Source: Clostridium sp. KNHs205 (GTDB taxonomy: Bacteria > Bacillota > Clostridia > Lachnospirales > Lachnospiraceae). Taken from it: a DNA stretch of 64,000 bases. Below the pieces are notes generated by a model, which did not search any database, had not been told where the DNA came from, and saw only the letters and a list, made by a program, of their open reading frames with translations. A program made the position numbers and the translations under genes. This document shows positions 7,056 to 64,000 of the stretch, piece after piece. Numbering within the stretch: position 1 is the first letter of the stretch; every line of letters starts with the position of its first letter. Location of the stretch: the NCBI RefSeq assembly GCF_000702945.1, contig NZ_JNLE01000003.1:1225501-1289500 (forward strand), given 5' to 3'.

Positions 7056-7883
7056 ATGGTTGTTGAGAAAATTATCAATAATAATATTATAAGCTCCTTT
7101 GATGAAAAAGGGAATGAAATTGTTGTAATGGGACGGGGGCTGGGATTTAAGGTTAAGCCTGGGCAAACCATTGATCAGGAGAAGGTAGAGAAAATATTCC
7201 GAATGGATAATGACCAGGAAGCAAAGCAATTGGAAGCAGTGTTAGCTGATATACCAATTGAAAATATCCAGCTGTGCAATGAGATAATCAGTTATGCAAA
7301 AACAGTAATCAAGAGCAAGTTGAGCAAGAACATATACATTACCCTTACCGATCATATTAATTACGCCATAACCCGGTACCAGGAAGGCATCCATTTTACC
7401 AATGCACTTAAGTGGGAGATCAAAAAATTCTATCATGAGGAATTTGAAGCAGGGAAAAAGGCAGTTGAATTGATTCGGGAAAGAATCGGTATTGATATGA
7501 CGGAGGATGAGGCAGCTTCAATAGCATTACATTTTGTAAATGCAGAGCTTGGAATAGAGATTTCCAATACAATTGATGTTACAAAGCTGATTCAAAATGT
7601 ACTAAAGATTATTACCTACCATTTTCAGCTGGTTATAAATGAAGACACCATTAATTATGAAAGGTTCATAACACATTTAAAATTCTTTTCACAAAGGGTT
7701 GTAACGAATAACAACAATACAGGGGTGGATGAAGAACTCTATCAGATGGTAAAAAATCAATACCCGGCAGCATATGCCTGTGCCGAAAAGATTAAGGCTT
7801 ATGTGGAGCAGGAATATCACATAGAGCTGCCGAAGGAAGAGATGGTATATCTGACCATCCATATTAAACGAATTGTAAGTTAA
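7056..7883 (+). CDS. licT: LicT/BglG-family transcriptional antiterminator
   Basis: A 275-residue protein of family-typical length. The N-terminal ~55 residues are the RNA-binding CAT domain (IINNNIISSFDEKGNEIVVM is typical). Two PTS regulation domains follow, PRD1 around 70-165 (LTDHI with His100, ALHF) and PRD2 around 175-275 (HLKFF, TIHIKRI). PRD histidines are phosphorylated by EII (inhibiting) or HPr (activating). The active dimer binds the RAT hairpins seen before this gene and before the glucosidase gene, so beta-glucoside uptake induces both parts of the operon. AAGGAGAAAGTC precedes the ATG. Confidence 0.93.
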   Translation: MVVEKIINNNIISSFDEKGNEIVVMGRGLGFKVKPGQTIDQEKVEKIFRMDNDQEAKQLEAVLADIPIENIQLCNEIISYAKTVIKSKLSKNIYITLTDHINYAITRYQEGIHFTNALKWEIKKFYHEEFEAGKKAVELIRERIGIDMTEDEAASIALHFVNAELGIEISNTIDVTKLIQNVLKIITYHFQLVINEDTINYERFITHLKFFSQRVVTNNNNTGVDEELYQMVKNQYPAAYACAEKIKAYVEQEYHIELPKEEMVYLTIHIKRIVS

Positions 7884-7911
7884 CGAACCATTATTGCTAA
7901 TTTCATAATCA

Positions 7912-7963
7912 GGATTGTTACTGTTGTACAGAGGCTTCGGCATTCGATGAGAACAGGCAAAAC
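7912..7963 (+). promoter_or_regulatory. Second RAT site between licT and the glucosidase gene
   Basis: GGATTGTTACTG at 7912-7923 and ACAGGCAAAACC at about 7953-7964 repeat the conserved RAT halves of the first site. The intervening stem sequence differs, so this is a conserved functional site and not a recent duplication. Confidence 0.85.
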
Positions 7964-8013
7964 CTAAACGTTGTTGCGGAGAGAATATTCTTTGCTTACG
8001 TTTAGGTTTTTTT
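7961..8013 (+). terminator. RAT-controlled terminator 2
   Basis: AACCTAAACG (7961-7970) pairs with CGTTTAGGTT (7999-8008), followed by TTTTT. It overlaps the RAT 3' half. Confidence 0.8.
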
Positions 8014-8015
8014 AA

Positions 8016-9464
<1,449 letters not shown>

Positions 9465-53964: not shown

Positions 53965-54279
53965 GTGGAATTTAAAGATTTTTTATCAATATTGAAAAAG
54001 CGAATATCTGATGGTGCAGATGTTCCTTATTTTTTCCGTGATTTGATAGCCATGATTACAGATGTGTCAGAAGATGAGTGGGGTACACAAAAGGACTCAT
54101 CAACCAAATTGACAAAAGAAAACACGCTTCGAAATTATTCAAAGCGTCGATTAAGCAAAAAATTTGCAGAGAGTATTGTTTATAGACTCGATAAAGATTT
54201 ATTTGTAGATTCAATTAACCAAAGGCCAAAGACAGTTAGAGAACTTTTGGCAGATGATTTTAGAGCCGAATATAGGTGA
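53965..54279 (+). pseudogene. 5' part of an interrupted hypothetical gene in the defence island
   Basis: The frame starts best at the GTG at 53965 (VEFKDFLSILKKR), with AGGAG 9 bp upstream; the frame is open back to 53896. It ends at TGA 54277. Shifting one base at the TTTT near 54258 continues the sense (LEPNIGELLADCFVEIIRSAA) until about 54325, where a second shift leads into the frame at 54340-54942. I read this as one gene of about 325 codons broken twice. Family unknown; it contains no recognisable domain. Confidence 0.5.
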
Positions 54280-54339
54280 ACTTTTAGCAGATTGTTTTGT
54301 TGAGATAATTCGTTCTGCAGCTGCCCTGTTCAGCAAGCA

Positions 54340-54942
54340 TTGTTAGAGAATTTATCTCTTGAAAAAGGGATAGTTGATGTTCTAAAAAAGGTTAAAAAGC
54401 TGAATCAGAAGGATTTATCTAATGCTTCTCTTGACCCTAAAGAGATAACGCAAAAAATAAATCCAGAAGACGATTTTGCACTGTATTTGACAATCAATTC
54501 TTATGTTAATGCGTATTATGTTCGCATGAGAGAGATTATGACAAATGCAGATAAACATGGCGAGGATTCTTTGTTTTCGACTCAGCGTAAGCCTCCGTAC
54601 ATTCACTTTAATCGTTATGACAGCTATAAATTTGAAACTCCTAAGGATACAGGTACAGGTTCAAATTATAAAAGAATGATAGTATACGATTTGGCGATAT
54701 TGTTTACTACTGCGCTTCCGGCATTGGCCCATTATTCTTTGCTCTTCAAGTATCTGGAAAAGAATGTCGAGGATGGAATTATCAGAATATATGATAGTAC
54801 TAAAAAGCAGGTGTTTATTGCTTACGATAAACAAGGAGATTGTAGGCCTGAGACAAGAGAAACATTAGAAAGAAACTGTGTTCTCAGACTCTCAAATGAT
54901 AATTGCGAACTATATGGAAGGTCATGGAATATAGAGGAGTAA
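54340..54942 (+). pseudogene. 3' part of the interrupted hypothetical gene
   Basis: A 200-codon frame with no proper start (the first candidate is TTG inside QQALLENLSLEKG). It is in the same frame as 53965-54279, joined through a 60-bp stretch readable only in another frame. The protein is soluble and mixed alpha/beta, with KRMIVYDLAILFTTALPALAHYS as the only hydrophobic part. I recognise no family. It ends 8 bp before the XRE gene, so it is part of the same transcription unit and is probably an accessory component of the island. Confidence 0.55.
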
Positions 54943-54949
54943 AACCAGT

Positions 54950-55162
54950 ATGAAGATGTGTTATAATAAATTATGGAAGTTACTGATCGACAAAAACATG
55001 AAAAAATCGGATTTGAGAAAGAACGCAGGAATCAGTTCATCTTCTCTTGCAAAGCTAGGTAAAGATGAAAATGTTACCACAGAAGTGTTAGCAAAAATCT
55101 GTAATGAACTCAAATGTGATGTAAGTGATATTATGGAATTTGTACCTGATGAAAGTAAATAG
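54950..55162 (+). CDS. XRE-family helix-turn-helix regulator
   Basis: A 70-residue Cro/CI-type protein consisting almost only of the HTH (LWKLLIDKNMKKSDLRKNAG, SSSSLAKLGKD, TTEVLAKICNELKCDVSDIM). GAGGAG stands 9 bp upstream. It lies 47 bp before the ATPase gene of a restriction-like operon, the position occupied by controller proteins in restriction-modification systems; it may time expression of the methylase and nuclease genes (inference). Confidence 0.88.
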   Translation: MKMCYNKLWKLLIDKNMKKSDLRKNAGISSSSLAKLGKDENVTTEVLAKICNELKCDVSDIMEFVPDESK

Positions 55163-55209
55163 ATACTCGGTTTAACTAGGAATCGATTAATTATGAAAGG
55201 GATCTGCAA

Positions 55210-56676
55210 ATGAAAACAAAAAGCTTGCCACCCTATGCGCCTACTTTAATCGAGTCAACAAGAGCAATTGGATATTCTCTTGAGGCAGCAGTGGCCGATA
55301 TTATTGATAACAGTATCGCAGCGAATGCAAAGAATGTTGATATATATTTTTTCCCGGTAGACGGTGCATATATTGCTATTCTTGATAATGGGAAAGGAAT
55401 GACTGAGGAAGAAATTGATATTGCTATGCAATATGGAAGTAAGAATCCAACTGAAGAAAGGGATAAAAAAGATTTAGGACGTTTTGGCTTAGGATTAAAG
55501 ACAGCATCGTTGTCTCAGTGTAGATGTCTGACTGTTATTTCCAAGCAAGGAGGTGAATTAGAGGGACGTCAATGGGATATAGATCATGTTACAGAAGTAG
55601 GAGATTGGTCTTTAATTGTACTTGATGAAGACGAATTAAATCAGCTTCCACAGATTGATGAATTAAAAAAATATGAAACTGGAACACTAGTGATTTGGCA
55701 GAAACTAGATCGCTTGAAGGCGGGAGAAATCAATTTTGAACTATCACTAGGACGTAAAATTGACAGGGTTAGAGATCACCTGTCTCTTGTTTATCATAGA
55801 TACATAGCCGGTGAATCCGGGATCACTAAACTTAAGCTGTCAATAAATGGAGAAAAAGTAAAAGCAATTGATCCGTTTTTGACTGAGAAAAGTGTGCAGG
55901 CAATGGATGATGAGAGCCTGGTCATACAAGGCAATAAAATATTAGTACGGGCATATATTCTTCCGCATATATCCAAGCTCACAGCGGATGAAATAAAAAT
56001 GCTGGGTGGTAAAGATGGTCTTAGAAAACAGCAAGGCTTCTATGTTTATAGGAATAAAAGATTATTAGTATGGGGAACTTGGTTCAGAATGATGAGGCAG
56101 GGAGATTTATCAAAACTTGCCAGAATTCGTGTCGATATTCCCAACACATTAGATGATCTATGGACCCTGGATATAAAGAAATCATCCGCATTACCACCTG
56201 CAGAGGTTAGAAAAAATTTAGAAATAATAATAACCCAAATTGCAGAGCGAAGCAAAAGAACATGGACATTCAGGGGAAAAAAAGAAGTAAGCGATACGGA
56301 AACTCATGTGTGGAATCGAATGAAAAACAAGCAGGGTGGATTTTATTATGAAGTTAATCGCGATCATCCGCTTGTACAGCAATTGGTGAAAGCTAATCCG
56401 AATATGGAAACATCGATATATGCTTTGCTACAGCAGATTGAGATTGGGCTACCTCTTAATCAGCTATATGTTGATCTAAATAATGATGAACAGATCATAA
56501 ATGATAACGAGCAATCAGATATTGAAATAAAAAAATCATTAGAGGATATGATTACTATGTGTGCAGGAAAGCAGGAAAAATGCAATCTGCTGGATGCTGT
56601 TGCTGGTATTGAACCATATTCTGCGCACACTCAAATAATAGAAAAACTAAAGGAGGAAATTTTAGAAAATGAGTAA
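55210..56676 (+). CDS. MORC/MutL-like GHKL ATPase of the defence operon
   Basis: A 488-residue protein with an N-terminal Bergerat (GHKL) ATP-binding fold: N box AAVADIIDNSIAANAKNV (about residues 26-43), G1 LDNGKGMTEEE (59) and G2 LGRFGLGLKTASLSQC (90). A transducer-like domain follows, with RLLVWGTWFRM and RVDIPNTLDDLWTLD. The C-terminal ~130 residues are not recognised. Bacterial ATPases of this type are known next to Z1 helicases, nucleases and DNA methylases. AAAGGGATCTGCAA precedes the ATG. Its stop overlaps the next gene by 8 bp. Confidence 0.88.
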   Translation: MKTKSLPPYAPTLIESTRAIGYSLEAAVADIIDNSIAANAKNVDIYFFPVDGAYIAILDNGKGMTEEEIDIAMQYGSKNPTEERDKKDLGRFGLGLKTASLSQCRCLTVISKQGGELEGRQWDIDHVTEVGDWSLIVLDEDELNQLPQIDELKKYETGTLVIWQKLDRLKAGEINFELSLGRKIDRVRDHLSLVYHRYIAGESGITKLKLSINGEKVKAIDPFLTEKSVQAMDDESLVIQGNKILVRAYILPHISKLTADEIKMLGGKDGLRKQQGFYVYRNKRLLVWGTWFRMMRQGDLSKLARIRVDIPNTLDDLWTLDIKKSSALPPAEVRKNLEIIITQIAERSKRTWTFRGKKEVSDTETHVWNRMKNKQGGFYYEVNRDHPLVQQLVKANPNMETSIYALLQQIEIGLPLNQLYVDLNNDEQIINDNEQSDIEIKKSLEDMITMCAGKQEKCNLLDAVAGIEPYSAHTQIIEKLKEEILENE

Positions 56677-59419
56677 TCCTTATATTGAACAAGTAGAGAA
56701 TATCATCTCAGCATTTATTAATAATGTTTACAAAGAGATTCCTCCGACAGAAGAAGAATTTTTAGAAAAAGCAACTTTGTTAAGAAATGCAAATGCTCCA
56801 ATAATGCCGGTTTCTGATGAAGAGTTTAAAGAGATTATAACTAGGCTTAAAGAATCATTAGTTATTCAAATGGATGTTGGTGTATTTATCAATGATCGAA
56901 ATAACGGTCATCAGTCCTGGTTACCGTCTAAGCGAGCTGACTTTGATTTCTTTTTTTGGAACAGATATAAAAAATACCTTGAAGAAATTAAACATTGGAA
57001 TCCAAGAGTTACAACTAATTTAGGAAAAGTTTCCGATGAGATATTAGATTTATGCGGCGACCCATCAGAAGATCATTTTGCAATAAAGGGATTAGTGTTG
57101 GGTGATGTGCAGTCTGGTAAAACAGCAAACTATACAGCTATTTGCAATAAGGCTGCAGATACTGGCTACAGAATTATTATTGTTTTAGCTGGTATGCAGG
57201 AGAATTTGCGTAAGCAAACTCAGGAAAGATTGGATGCCGAATGTACTGGAAGAAAAAGTGAATATTACCTTGATCCTAAAGCCGAACAGGGAATAAAAAA
57301 TCAACCAGTTGGCGTAGGAAGATACGGTACTGATAAAAAAATAGTTGCTTTTACTTCTGTGACTAAGGACTTTGATAGCGGTATTCTTAGAAATAATAAT
57401 TTAGGTATCGAAAACGTTAATTGTCCTGTTATTTTGGTAGTGAAGAAGAATAAGAGGATTCTCAACAATTTGATTAAATGGTTATCAGATAATAACACGC
57501 AAAATGCTGCGGGACAGATTGATCTTCCGCTTTTGCTTATTGATGATGAGGCTGACAATGCATCTGTTAATACGAAAGATGAGGATTCTCAGCCGGCCGC
57601 AATTAATGATTGCATTAGACGTTTGCTGAATCTTTTTAGCAAGACAACATATTTAGGGATTACGGCAACACCTTTTGCGAACATTTTTATTGATCCAGAA
57701 AAAGATGATGATCTATTTCCGGCTGATTTTATCTATGCACTTTCTGCTCCAACTAACTATATTGGTGCTGATAGAATCTTTGGAGACAACTCAGATAGTG
57801 ATCATATGCTTCAGGAAATTGACATCGAAGAGCTAGAAGCGTGTTTCCCTCCTTCGCATAAAAAGGATTTTATTGTTGAGGAATTGCCAGAAGATTTATA
57901 TGAAGCATCATATTATTTCTTGTTATTAAATGCATTTCGTGATTATAGAGGCGATCTCACTGACAACAGGTCTATGATGGTACATATTAGTCGCTTCACA
58001 AATGTGCAGAATCAAATACAAGAAATGATGAATGTATGGTTAGATCAGGTGAAATCAGACGTTCGAAATTATGCCAAGTTACCGTTAGATCAAAGTGATA
58101 AAATAAGAAACATTAAGGCATTGCATGTTGTTTGGGATAAGTATAATTTAAGCGGAATTGTTGGAATCGAATGGGAAGACTTGCTTAAAAACTACTTACA
58201 TAAAGCAATTTCTCCTATTGAGGTGCGTGCTGTGAATATGAAGACAGGAGCAGCAAGCTTAGACTATTTTAATCACAAGAGTGACGGTTTACGTGTTATT
58301 GCTGTAGGTGGAAATAGTATGTCCAGAGGACTGACATTAGAGGGCTTGGGAGTAACCTACTTCCATCGTAATACGAAGATGTATGATACTTTATTACAGA
58401 TGGGACGTTGGTTCGGCTATAGACCTAACTACGGTGATGTTGTAAAGGTTTGGATGACACCAGAAGCTATTGACTGGTATGGACAAATTACCAGAGCTAC
58501 AGCAGAGCTTAAGGAAGAAATCTCAAAAATGAGAAATGCAAATCAAACACCTAGAGATTTTGGTTTAAAAGTACGACAAGACCCTGGTGCTTTAATTGTA
58601 ACTGCACGAAACAAAATGCGTACAGCTACAGATTTAACATGTCCTGTTACTGTGTCTGGTAATTTATTGGAGACACCTAGATTAAAGGCATCAAAGAATA
58701 TTTTGGCTTCGAATGAGACTGCTTTTAAGAATTTTGTAAATTCGTTGAATAGCATTGGAAACAGATTTTTAGATGAGGATCGTACAAAGGGACATTATTA
58801 CTGGAAGAATGTCCCAGGTGATAATGTTGCTCAACTGCTGTTAGACTTTGAAACAAATCCATGGCACTTAAATTTTAATGGTAGAGCACTGGCCGAATTT
58901 ATAGAAAGTCACTATTGGAGTAACGGTTGGGATGTAGTATTGATAAAATCTGGAACTGGAATCCCGTATGATGAATTGCTACAGTGTGGTGATGAAACGC
59001 TGGTGATCGAGGGGACAGAAAAAAGAAAAATATTAGCAGATAAGAAAATGATCAGTGTGAGTGGAACAAAGCTTCGTGTTGGAGCTGGTGGTTGTACTCG
59101 AATTGGATTAACTAAAGATGAAATCCAGAAAGCAGAAAAAGTGTATAGATCCATACCGAATAACGAGAATAAGGAAAATATACCTGATAAGGCTTACTTG
59201 ATACCTGATAGAGATCCTATTCTGATGTTACATGTGATTCAAGCTGATTATTCAAAAGCGGAGAATAAAGATTTACCTGAATTTTTGTTCGCTCTAGGAG
59301 TTGGATTCCCAAAAACTAGTGGAACTACTGAAACCGCAAACTATAAAGTCAATCTGATTGAATTAAGAAACTGGGTAGATGTTTATGATAATTATGACGA
59401 TGACGATGAGGATATGTGA
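56669..59419 (+). CDS. Z1-domain superfamily II helicase-like ATPase
   Basis: A 916-residue protein. Walker A GDVQSGKTANYTA lies near residue 145, Walker B LLLIDDEADNAS near 290, motif III-like LGITATPFANIF near 330, and the Z1-domain hallmark VGGNSMSRGLTLEGL with LLQMGRWFGYR near 550-585. Z1 proteins are predicted DNA translocases or helicases found in restriction-like operons with MORC-type ATPases. It overlaps the gene before it by 8 bp and shares a base with the start of the next, so the operon is translationally coupled. Confidence 0.9.
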   Translation: MSNPYIEQVENIISAFINNVYKEIPPTEEEFLEKATLLRNANAPIMPVSDEEFKEIITRLKESLVIQMDVGVFINDRNNGHQSWLPSKRADFDFFFWNRYKKYLEEIKHWNPRVTTNLGKVSDEILDLCGDPSEDHFAIKGLVLGDVQSGKTANYTAICNKAADTGYRIIIVLAGMQENLRKQTQERLDAECTGRKSEYYLDPKAEQGIKNQPVGVGRYGTDKKIVAFTSVTKDFDSGILRNNNLGIENVNCPVILVVKKNKRILNNLIKWLSDNNTQNAAGQIDLPLLLIDDEADNASVNTKDEDSQPAAINDCIRRLLNLFSKTTYLGITATPFANIFIDPEKDDDLFPADFIYALSAPTNYIGADRIFGDNSDSDHMLQEIDIEELEACFPPSHKKDFIVEELPEDLYEASYYFLLLNAFRDYRGDLTDNRSMMVHISRFTNVQNQIQEMMNVWLDQVKSDVRNYAKLPLDQSDKIRNIKALHVVWDKYNLSGIVGIEWEDLLKNYLHKAISPIEVRAVNMKTGAASLDYFNHKSDGLRVIAVGGNSMSRGLTLEGLGVTYFHRNTKMYDTLLQMGRWFGYRPNYGDVVKVWMTPEAIDWYGQITRATAELKEEISKMRNANQTPRDFGLKVRQDPGALIVTARNKMRTATDLTCPVTVSGNLLETPRLKASKNILASNETAFKNFVNSLNSIGNRFLDEDRTKGHYYWKNVPGDNVAQLLLDFETNPWHLNFNGRALAEFIESHYWSNGWDVVLIKSGTGIPYDELLQCGDETLVIEGTEKRKILADKKMISVSGTKLRVGAGGCTRIGLTKDEIQKAEKVYRSIPNNENKENIPDKAYLIPDRDPILMLHVIQADYSKAENKDLPEFLFALGVGFPKTSGTTETANYKVNLIELRNWVDVYDNYDDDDEDM

Positions 59420-60351
59420 TGAGCAGTAAAGAAAATGAACTAAGAGAAAAATGGAATACTATCAATTATTACTCTGGTGGCGCGTTGAAGTTGTCTGTAA
59501 ATCACCCACTTGAATGGTATGTTCGCTACGCATCACCAGAGCATAAGTCGGTTGTAATAGTAAGCCAAAAAGCAATAAAAAAGATCGATTCTTCAAAGTG
59601 TATTGATGCTTCATGTAATCAGCGAAAAGATGGTAAGTATGCGATAGCTTTTACACTGATGGATAGGAAACAAGAAGATGTTTTCATTACAATGGCGGGA
59701 GATATTATTGAGTATTCAAATGTGGATACTGATGATATTGCACTGCTAAAAGTGCTACGAAGATACAATGCGTGGCTCAAACTATTAGATCATAAAAGCA
59801 ATGCAGTTTTAGGAAGCAACACACAGAAAGGTCTTATAGGCGAGTTATTATTCTTGAAAGAAAAGATTGAAGCTGGAATGCTACCATCGGTAGCATTGGC
59901 TGGATGGGTTGGACCAGAAGGAGCGGATCAAGATTTTGTATATGCTGGATGCTGGCATGAAATCAAATCTACCGGAGCTTCATCTGCTGAAATTTCTATC
60001 TCATCTGTTGAACAAATAGATAGAGATGATGAGGGGGAATTAGTTGTCTATCGAATTGATAAATGTGCGCCAGATCAGCCAAAGTCATTCACATTATACG
60101 GATTGGTTCATACGGTAATTGATTTGATTTCAAGGAATGGTGATAACCCGGATGAACTAGTATTAAAACTAGGATCTGCAGGATATATTGATATGAAAGA
60201 GTATGATAAGCAACATTTTTGCATGTCTTCGAAACAATTTTATTCTGTAAACGATACATTTCCTAGAGTAAGAAGAAAAGATATTCCTGTGGAAATAACA
60301 AATATGGAATATCGGATTGATATACCTAGCATCAAAAGCTGGGAAAAGTAA
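59419..60351 (+). CDS. PD-(D/E)XK nuclease-like protein
   Basis: A 310-residue protein that looks like the restriction nuclease of the operon. A Glu in GLIGELLFLKE (about residue 140) is followed by GADQDFVYAG with Asp near 170 and WHEIKST with the E-x-K near 180, the spacing of PD-(D/E)XK catalytic cores. The N-terminal ~120 residues and the C-terminal part are not recognised. The ATG overlaps the stop of the Z1 gene (TGATG); a GTG three bases earlier is the alternative. Confidence 0.85.
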   Translation: MSSKENELREKWNTINYYSGGALKLSVNHPLEWYVRYASPEHKSVVIVSQKAIKKIDSSKCIDASCNQRKDGKYAIAFTLMDRKQEDVFITMAGDIIEYSNVDTDDIALLKVLRRYNAWLKLLDHKSNAVLGSNTQKGLIGELLFLKEKIEAGMLPSVALAGWVGPEGADQDFVYAGCWHEIKSTGASSAEISISSVEQIDRDDEGELVVYRIDKCAPDQPKSFTLYGLVHTVIDLISRNGDNPDELVLKLGSAGYIDMKEYDKQHFCMSSKQFYSVNDTFPRVRRKDIPVEITNMEYRIDIPSIKSWEK

Positions 60352-60363
60352 AAAAGTGGGAGG

Positions 60364-62454
60364 ATGTCAAACATGGATTCTACCGAATTTAAAAAGGATT
60401 TTATAGAAAGTATCAAAACTGCAGCAGCGGTTACTGGTGAAGGATCATGTGCATCCTTTGTAGAAAATATGGCACAGTATCTAATAGATGCGGAGTCCTT
60501 ATCTGATTTTACGCCTTCTTTTTATAAAGGTAAGAATGGACGTAGTAATTATAGAGTAGACGGATATGTTTATGATGAATTTGATAATACAATGAATCTT
60601 ATCATCGCAGATTTCGATGGAAATGATTTGGAACGTCGACTCACAGGAACAGCCGCAAATAAGAATTTTGGTTTACTCTTGAAATTTCTTGATGCTGCAT
60701 TAACAACCGATTTATACCAAGAAATAGAGATGAGTACACCATGTGCGGACTTGGTGGACCTTTTAAGATATAACAAGAAGGCGATTCGAAAATACCGTTT
60801 CCTTGTATTTACCGATGCGGATATGAGTGCTGCTATAAAAACAGTTGAAATCGATGATTACAATTCAATTCCCGTTGAAGGACAAATTTGGGACATTGAT
60901 CGTTTGTTCAGAGTTTGCTGTTCAGAACAAGGCCGTCAAATTATTGAAATTGATTTTAAGGAATATTGTGGTGAAGGCATACCATGTATTGAAGCTAGCT
61001 CTGCATCTACAGAACAGTATAGTAGTTATTTGGGAGTGATTCCAGGAACTGTTTTGGCTAACATTTATGATAAATATGGTAGTAAGCTTTTGGAAGGAAA
61101 TGTCAGATCTTTCTTATCTACTAAAGTAGCGGTAAATAAGAAAATCAGAGGAACAATTCTGAATAATCCTCAAATGTTTTTTGCGTTCAACAATGGAATT
61201 TCAGCAACGGCTATGGACGTTGAGATAGAAGATACCAATCACGGAAGATTTATAACGTTTGTTAGAGATTTTCAGATTATTAATGGTGGACAGACGACAG
61301 CGTCTATCTCAAATGCAAGATATAAGGATAAGGCAGACTTATCATCTATTTATGTGCAGATGAAATTAACTTCAATTGATGAATCGACGCCAGAGGAGTC
61401 GGATGAATTAATTAGGAATATCTCTAGATCTTCAAATAGTCAGAATAAAGTTAGCGATGCAGACTTCTTTGCATCTCATCCGTTTCATCGACGTATGGAA
61501 CAGATTTCAAGACACTTGTTTGCACCAGCATCGGAAGGTGCTCAGTATGAGACAAAATGGTTTTATGAAAGGGCAAGAGGACAGTACTTGCAAGAGCAAA
61601 TGCGCTTAACACCTGCAAAGAAAAAACAATTTGAACTACAGCATCCTAAAAATAAGGTGATTAAGAAAACGGACCTAGCAAAAGTTCAAAATACATGGAG
61701 AGGATTCCCACAGGTTGTCAGTAAAGGTGCACAGACCAATTTTAATGCGTTTGCAGAAGATATAGATGAACAGTGGAATGTAAATGATGAACAGTTTAAT
61801 GAGAGATATTTCCAAACCACGGCCGCATTGATTCTTTTGTTCCAATATCTAGAGAAAACCATACCAAAGCAGCCTTGGTATGAGGGTGGATATCGTGCGA
61901 ACATCATTTATTATACTTTGGCACAATTCAGAAGATTATTACATAATCAATACCAGGGTCAGGAACTTGATCTGATGTTAATTTGGAACAGACAAAGTGT
62001 GCCTGAACAAGTGGGAATTGTTTTGATTGCGTTGGCAGAATTGGTTCTTCTTAGAATAACTGATCCATCAAGAAAAGTTGCGAATGTTACTCAATGGTGT
62101 AAGAGAAATGATTGTTGGGAAGATGTGAAAAAGATCCAGCTTGACATTCCTGAAGATATCGAAAATTGCTTAATCACTATTGACGAGCAAAAGGCGGCAC
62201 AGAAATCTGCAAAAAAAGAGCAGAAGGTTGTAAATGAAATTCAGGCTCAGACAACGGTTGTAAATTATCCTGTAGAAATGTGGATGAGGCTATCAGAGTT
62301 TGTTGTAAGGAATCATATGGTTACACCCACGGACGTATCTGCATTAGTGATTGCTTGTAAAATGCCTGCCGAAATACCAAACACTTATCAATGCAAGAGA
62401 TTACTTGCATTGTTACGCAAAGCCTCCGCAGAAGGCTTTAATACTGAAGCGTAA
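60364..62454 (+). CDS. AIPR-family (abortive infection phage resistance) protein
   Basis: A 696-residue protein with the AIPR signature: FFAFNNGISATAMDVEIED, then FQIINGGQTTASISNARYK and SSNSQNKVSDADFFAS. AIPR proteins are found in phage-defence loci, often beside methylases and the genes seen here; their biochemical activity is not settled. AGTGGGAGGATGTC precedes the ATG, 12 bp after the nuclease gene. The last ~80 residues, after a Lys/Gln-rich stretch, form a separate unrecognised module. Confidence 0.9.
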   Translation: MSNMDSTEFKKDFIESIKTAAAVTGEGSCASFVENMAQYLIDAESLSDFTPSFYKGKNGRSNYRVDGYVYDEFDNTMNLIIADFDGNDLERRLTGTAANKNFGLLLKFLDAALTTDLYQEIEMSTPCADLVDLLRYNKKAIRKYRFLVFTDADMSAAIKTVEIDDYNSIPVEGQIWDIDRLFRVCCSEQGRQIIEIDFKEYCGEGIPCIEASSASTEQYSSYLGVIPGTVLANIYDKYGSKLLEGNVRSFLSTKVAVNKKIRGTILNNPQMFFAFNNGISATAMDVEIEDTNHGRFITFVRDFQIINGGQTTASISNARYKDKADLSSIYVQMKLTSIDESTPEESDELIRNISRSSNSQNKVSDADFFASHPFHRRMEQISRHLFAPASEGAQYETKWFYERARGQYLQEQMRLTPAKKKQFELQHPKNKVIKKTDLAKVQNTWRGFPQVVSKGAQTNFNAFAEDIDEQWNVNDEQFNERYFQTTAALILLFQYLEKTIPKQPWYEGGYRANIIYYTLAQFRRLLHNQYQGQELDLMLIWNRQSVPEQVGIVLIALAELVLLRITDPSRKVANVTQWCKRNDCWEDVKKIQLDIPEDIENCLITIDEQKAAQKSAKKEQKVVNEIQAQTTVVNYPVEMWMRLSEFVVRNHMVTPTDVSALVIACKMPAEIPNTYQCKRLLALLRKASAEGFNTEA

Positions 62455-62464
62455 TGGAGGAACT

Positions 62465-64000
62465 ATGTATAATACGATAGATTTGTTTGCTGGTGCTGGG
62501 GGACTAAGTCTTGGCTTTATGCAAACAAAAAAATTTGATATAAAAGTTGCATTTGAATTTAATCCTGCTATGCAGGAAACATATAAGAAAAATCATCCAG
62601 GGGTGGCTGTATTTGGAGACGTTAGAGACGCTGACTATGCAGAGATAAGAGAAAAATACGGCGATATCGATGTTGTAATTGGCGGTCCTCCCTGTCAGGG
62701 ATTTTCCAATGCTAATAGGCAAAAAAATCATGCGATTAGTCAAAACAACTCATTGGTGAAACAGTATATTAGAGCAATTTCAGAACTCAAACCAAAGGCA
62801 TTCGTAATGGAAAATGTGAGCATGCTTAGATCGGATGTTCATAGATTCTATTTATGTGGTGATGATCAAGAATTAGTAGATAGTAATGTAATTGAAACAG
62901 CTAATACAGAACTGGTATTACTTGATGCTGATTTTATGTTTGTTGGTGCGATTGATATTGTGCAATCGGAGCAAGAAGTTAGCAAATATAAGTGGGATGA
63001 TTTTGACAATCTTGAGTTAAATGTAATTTATAAGGCTTCAAAAAATGCTACTAAATTTAAAGGAGTATTAGAAAAACATAAAGCGCGTTTAATAAAAATC
63101 GCAGAGAAGCACAGAGATCATAATGAAGAAGACTTTATTATCAACGCGGATTGGGTTGCATTTAACGCAATGCTGGATTTTTATGCTGGGAAAATAGGAG
63201 AATCTCAAATTAAAGAATTGATTGAACCAGCAATTATGTACCAAAGAATGATAAGAAAGGCCCAGGAAATATTTGATAACGATATAGTAGTTGATAGTTA
63301 TACAGATGATAAAGGGTTAACTGCTAATATTCGTTCATATGCGGTTTTTGATTATTTAAAGGCAAAACTAAAAGGTACTGGTGATAACGATGGATATGCG
63401 ATTTCTGCAGATGTTCTTTCGGCGACACAGTTTGGTGCACCACAGAAGAGAATGCGTTTTGTAGTAATGGGAATTCGTAAAGATATTTCAGATGAAGTGA
63501 AACTTCCAGAAGGAAAATTTAAGGATGGCCCATATCGAACTGTTGAGGATGCAATTAAAGATTTGGAAGATGTTGATCCGATCTACAATGTATCCGACGA
63601 TAATGAGGGTATTAAGCTACAAGAAAAATCAGACTTGAGTGAGCTGGCACAATCGCTTAGAGACTCTGAGATTTTGCATAATCATATCATAACTAAAACT
63701 ACAGAAACTGCTATGGAGCGTTTTAGAGCACTAGATCAGGGTCAGAATTTTCATTCGTTATCTGATGAAATGAAGACAAACACTTATACAGATGTTACAA
63801 GAACTCAGAATACGATTTATTTGCGATTAAAATATGATGAGCCATCAGGTACAGTTGTCAACGTGCGTAAATCGATGTGGGTGCATCCTACACAAGATAG
63901 AGCTGTAAGTATTAGAGAGGCTGCACGCTTGCAGACGTTTCCGGATAGTTTTGTCTTTTGTGGAACGAAAGACAAACAATATCAACAGGTAGGAAATGCG
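62465..64000 (+). CDS. C5-cytosine DNA methyltransferase (3' end outside window)
   Basis: At least 512 residues are visible and the frame is open at the window edge. Motif I is DLFAGAGGLSLGF, motif IV with the catalytic Cys is GGPPCQGFSNANR, motif VI is VMENV and motif VIII is APQKRMRFVV. The window ends in motif X (QQVGNA), so little is missing. About 200 residues between motifs VI and VIII form an unusually long insertion. It starts 10 bp after the AIPR gene behind TGGAGGAACT. It probably marks host DNA against the nuclease of the same operon. Confidence 0.93.
   Translation, partial: MYNTIDLFAGAGGLSLGFMQTKKFDIKVAFEFNPAMQETYKKNHPGVAVFGDVRDADYAEIREKYGDIDVVIGGPPCQGFSNANRQKNHAISQNNSLVKQYIRAISELKPKAFVMENVSMLRSDVHRFYLCGDDQELVDSNVIETANTELVLLDADFMFVGAIDIVQSEQEVSKYKWDDFDNLELNVIYKASKNATKFKGVLEKHKARLIKIAEKHRDHNEEDFIINADWVAFNAMLDFYAGKIGESQIKELIEPAIMYQRMIRKAQEIFDNDIVVDSYTDDKGLTANIRSYAVFDYLKAKLKGTGDNDGYAISADVLSATQFGAPQKRMRFVVMGIRKDISDEVKLPEGKFKDGPYRTVEDAIKDLEDVDPIYNVSDDNEGIKLQEKSDLSELAQSLRDSEILHNHIITKTTETAMERFRALDQGQNFHSLSDEMKTNTYTDVTRTQNTIYLRLKYDEPSGTVVNVRKSMWVHPTQDRAVSIREAARLQTFPDSFVFCGTKDKQYQQVGNA

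Follow-up and report, generated by a model that had tools for sequence, protein, structure and literature searches.

The gene set analysed here is closest to the putative defence system of Type II that Miller et al. (2022, PMC9523054) predicted and compared with mzaABCDE (Gao et al. 2020, via PMC9523054 and PADLOC). Also related are the third MORC operon class (Iyer et al. 2008, PMC2292703), which comprises MORC, an SF2 helicase with a DThhQXuRhFG motif, an E-D-ExK nuclease, Dcm, Vsr and AIPR and for which DNA looping was proposed, and CglI/NgoAVII (PMC4267653, PMC5737866), whose R-protein joins a PLD nuclease to B3. Here we analysed a stretch of 64,000 nucleotides from Clostridium sp. KNHs205 (contig NZ_JNLE01000003.1, positions 1,225,501 to 1,289,500; hereafter the window) and found that the gene cluster at its end is an intact seven-gene variant of this already described kind of system. 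The family is of an anti-virus type in which own DNA would be methylated and unmarked DNA is probably attacked. The genes lie as follows, with the locus that holds the window denoted L002.

55210..56676, + strand: mzaB-like gene, MORC/MutL-type GHKL ATPase of 488 amino acids (aa) (HATPase_c_3 1.8e-36; MzaB 4.4e-90)
56669..59419, + strand: core gene between the mzaB-like and mzaD-like genes (mzaC position in the order)
59416..60351, + strand: mzaD-like gene, PD-(D/E)XK nuclease (DUF4420) of 311 aa (DUF4420 1.4e-55; MzaD 1.9e-20)
60364..62454, + strand: mzaE-like gene, AIPR protein of 696 aa, N-domain with a restriction-endonuclease fold
62465..64000, running on to window-equivalent 64075 (L002:14576), + strand: C5-cytosine methylase carrying a helical insertion between motifs VI and VIII
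L002:14589-16553, beyond the window: PDC-S41 helicase of 654 aa, 12 bp after the methylase
L002:16550-17317, beyond the window: HNH nuclease of 255 aa, overlapping the PDC-S41 gene by 4 bp

A first-pass annotation, made from the letters of the window, had proposed a defence operon here. Profile matches and coordinates confirm that the cluster is real, with its mzaB-, mzaD- and mzaE-like genes and C5 methylase. It had suggested looking for the same gene order in other genomes and for what follows the methylase: the window has homologues of MzaB, C, D and E in the order of mzaABCDE, MzaD is present in 77 of the 80 kept loci, and the methylase is followed by the PDC-S41 helicase and then the HNH nuclease, both wholly outside the window. 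No MzaA, a sigma factor according to PMC9523054, was among the matches listed by PADLOC for the proteins scanned in the window and its neighbourhood, and we therefore file the cluster as Mza-like rather than as strict mzaABCDE.

The Type II system is associated with a MORC protein and with a regulator, and both recur here, as the MORC/MutL-type ATPase (55210-56676) and an HTH_26 protein (54950-55162); the DUF4220 printed in PMC9523054 is read here as DUF4420. The text of that paper, as far as it was available, does not mention the Schlafen-group-3 (SLFN-g3) helicase, the methylase insert, methylase exchange or a B3 reader. While the Iyer class has Vsr, none was found in the window's genome, where PDC-S41 and HNH follow the methylase instead. 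The cluster differs from CglI/NgoAVII by its separate PD-(D/E)XK nuclease, MORC and AIPR proteins and by having no PLD-B3 protein; neither PLD nor B3 gave a Pfam match in the proteins scanned, whether from the window or from the two genes that follow it. In the literature examined, we found no description of the PDC-S41 and HNH extension, of methylase-unit exchange between cores, of the B3 link or of a lysine-less restriction fold in AIPR. Among the papers listed, titles and abstract openings gave no mechanism for the gene set, and no title linked DUF2075 or PDC-S41 to the system; with capped lists and subscription papers mostly missing, both are weak evidence of absence.

The core proteins carry conserved sites. 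In MzaB, D33, N34, D59, G61, G63, G90, R91, G93, G95 and K97 are invariant across 35 aligned rows, and its weak PDB matches are MORC2 (0.001) and MutL; in MzaD, E143, D173, E182, K184 and Q200 are invariant across 33 rows. For MzaE, Foldseek returned no PDB match at E <= 0.001; among viral models it matched the N-domain of a GmrSD (E 2.5e-3) and, more weakly, a DndB-like protein (E 0.034). The first-pass annotation suggested that the ATPase and the Z1 protein may form a loop-tracking or translocating complex that brings the nuclease to unmethylated DNA, with AIPR as an effector; this interpretation is partly supported. We favour, with moderate confidence, a modular ATP-driven restriction-modification system. 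In one rival, MzaE kills or arrests the cell when the complex senses foreign DNA. This abortive infection would agree with the AIPR family name, with the GmrSD match, and with 19 AIPR-core residues, drawn from a list of invariant positions, that are identical in 35/35 rows, as in an active or ligand site. We nevertheless consider it improbable, because the restriction-fold N-domain of MzaE lacks the nuclease lysine and the methylase is almost always present, a better fit to direct restriction. The comparison by hhalign with DUF262 proteins was also negative, though made against an alignment of only three; AIPR as a GmrSD/DndB-like (ParB-fold) sensor was accordingly set aside and is kept as a lead only.

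A bolder reading, to which we give a probability of roughly one in four, is that the family is a modular machine whose specificity unit is mobile between cores. The window-type methylase would dock on the core via its helical insert of ~170 residues, double as the core's reader and tend to move together with a Schlafen-group-3 helicase-nuclease; sister systems would use a short methylase and a free B3 reader for the same task. Over locus pairs, core proteins correlate with one another at Spearman 0.59-0.72, whereas core and methylase correlate at 0.23-0.37. G004 (L011), from the same family, is 44-62% identical to the window in the B, C, D and E proteins, but its methylase matches at only 29% over 223 residues. 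Trees of a quick kind were compared for MzaC and the methylase over the 28 loci with the window's methylase type; the MzaC tree places loci L228 and L204 with the G110 group, the methylase tree inside the window's group. Forcing the five rows of the MzaC clade together in the methylase tree was rejected (p-AU 1.6e-6), as was the reverse constraint on the MzaC tree, which kept L228 with L039 and L043 (9.0e-8); the groups were named only once the trees had been seen, and long branches were flagged, including that of L228 in the MzaC tree. Taken together, these data suggest exchange of the methylase, in some cases along with an additional helicase-nuclease gene, among versions of the system that are otherwise distinct.

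The distribution of the extra gene can be read in two ways. Matches to S41 at E <= 1e-20 occur in 9 of 299 family genomes. Only those of the window and of G110 are in one piece (67-100% identity), and an Mza methylase directly precedes both; in the other seven the best piece is 33-53% identical, and in six of these loci (G156 being left out) the 8-14 kb examined contain no Mza gene. Among 106 Mza-gene loci scanned, S41 is present in four, namely L002, L012 (G110), the viral contig L228 and L204 (G707), all of them within the 28-locus tree set and none in the other 78. PDC-S41 and HNH could be an unrelated defence cassette that landed by chance behind the methylase in a defence island, an explanation we regard as quite possible, if short of even odds. 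It draws on the absence of S41 and HNH from all 80 kept loci, on HNH adjoining Mza genes in the window's locus alone among those scanned, on more distant S41 relatives without Mza genes in six loci and one plasmid, and on the remnants of two other systems that flank the cluster. Chance landing is harder to reconcile with the three further loci in which S41 follows a methylase of the window's type, namely L012 (S41 67% identical to that of the window), L228 (42%) and L204 (682 bits, with one Vsr gene between methylase and S41), although the cores of L012 and L228 are only 27-37% identical to the window's and that of L204 is also far; the L228 methylase is 62% identical. It is in L228 and L204, too, that methylase and core conflict in the trees. 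This distribution fits a methylase-S41 unit moving between cores, as the modular reading would have it, albeit over only four loci and with some contigs ending soon after the methylase. As a core component, PDC-S41 was rejected on its absence from the kept loci. In the sister system of L011, the last gene (7370-9025) fuses GIY-YIG to an SLFN-g3 helicase, the same helicase domain with another nuclease. In L144, L145 and L147, S41 relatives lie near NUDIX-like genes (by eye, from open reading frame (ORF) starts).

Several observations weigh against the favoured restriction-modification reading. Neither the proteins of the window nor the two genes after it yielded a B3 or other reader, and two loci (L037 and L059) have B, C, E and the methylase and no recognisable MzaD, so that cutting by MzaD would not be universal. 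A rival reading in which MzaD cutting would be dispensable, which we consider improbable, draws on these two loci, on the weak MORC2 match of MzaB and on the missing lysine in the restriction fold of MzaE; against it stand the presence of MzaD in 77 of the 80 kept loci and its invariant catalytic residues. Covariation does not settle which part reads the DNA. Pooled over 90 loci, MzaD follows the similarity of the methylases over and above the other core proteins (partial 0.185, reached by 0/200 shuffles) and MzaC does so more weakly (0.098, 1/200), with label shuffles that ignore kinship; MzaB and MzaE do not. Within methylase types, the target-recognition region is not tracked by MzaB, MzaC or MzaD (partials all negative), and MzaE follows it weakly in the window's type (0.11, reached by 81/300 shuffles). 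In that type (22 loci) MzaE holds all eight of the highest-scoring 50-residue stretches, with a maximum of 0.56 at residues 376-425 (the stretches were picked as best and not shuffled); in the other type, which covers 49 loci, MzaC and MzaB hold the best ones. We therefore claim no core protein as the reader.

The MzaD-less B-C-E-methylase operons (L037:12748-12816 and L059:12637-12665) offer natural tests of the need for the MzaD nuclease. Exclusivity of the insert-type methylase to Mza was rejected: G486 carries one without Mza genes (L172:8329-9933), close to a 772-aa unknown protein. MzaC is absent from the stretch examined in 3 of 6 viral loci with an insert-type methylase, two of these being at or near the stretch edge. 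In L046 (15755-18702) and L049 (15854-18805), mzaE is followed by a tandem pair of methylase genes and then a protein of 200-204 aa without a Pfam match, possibly indicating an asymmetric site and an unrecognised reader.

Upstream of mzaB, the first-pass annotation had placed an XRE regulator and an unknown gene; the regulator stands, and the unknown gene belongs to the remains of an ABC-3C system.

53965..54279, + strand: remnant of the N-terminus of an ABC-3C (LmuA-like) effector (PADLOC LmuA 3.7e-7, profile positions 1-101 of 327)
54340..54942, + strand: remnant joining in frame the effector C-domain (CTD11) to the C-end of the ABC-3C ATPase (DUF2326) (Pfam CTD11 1.1e-11, DUF2326 1.4e-12)
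54950..55162, + strand: XRE/Cro-like regulator of 70 aa (Pfam HTH_26 1.3e-21)

The first product matches the start of an intact 419-aa ORF in L139 with 74% identity over 101 residues. The halves of the second match two separate ORFs in both L139 and L140, its 200 aa joining part of the effector C-domain to the last 125 ATPase residues. In these relatives the effector ORF has 419 aa (L139) and 379 aa (L140) and the ATPase ORF 553 and 550 aa; in the window neither effector nor ATPase is intact, and only three pieces are left. Positions 53965-54942 are a decayed ABC-3C (Lamassu-like) defence system, apparently reduced by two deletions. The closest relatives of the window's XRE regulator follow the ABC-3C ATPases that are intact in L139 and L140; further ones precede mzaB by 81 bp (L042), 117 bp (L043) and about 1 kb (L150), and in L228 an HTH_26 protein lies 19 bp ahead of mzaB. 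Downstream of the cluster is a DUF3427 helicase (PADLOC type IV mREase model) without its N-terminal part (L002:17519-18553 and L003:7241-8028), interrupted by an IS66-like element (named from its ORFs, with no family scan) and followed by a NUDIX gene.
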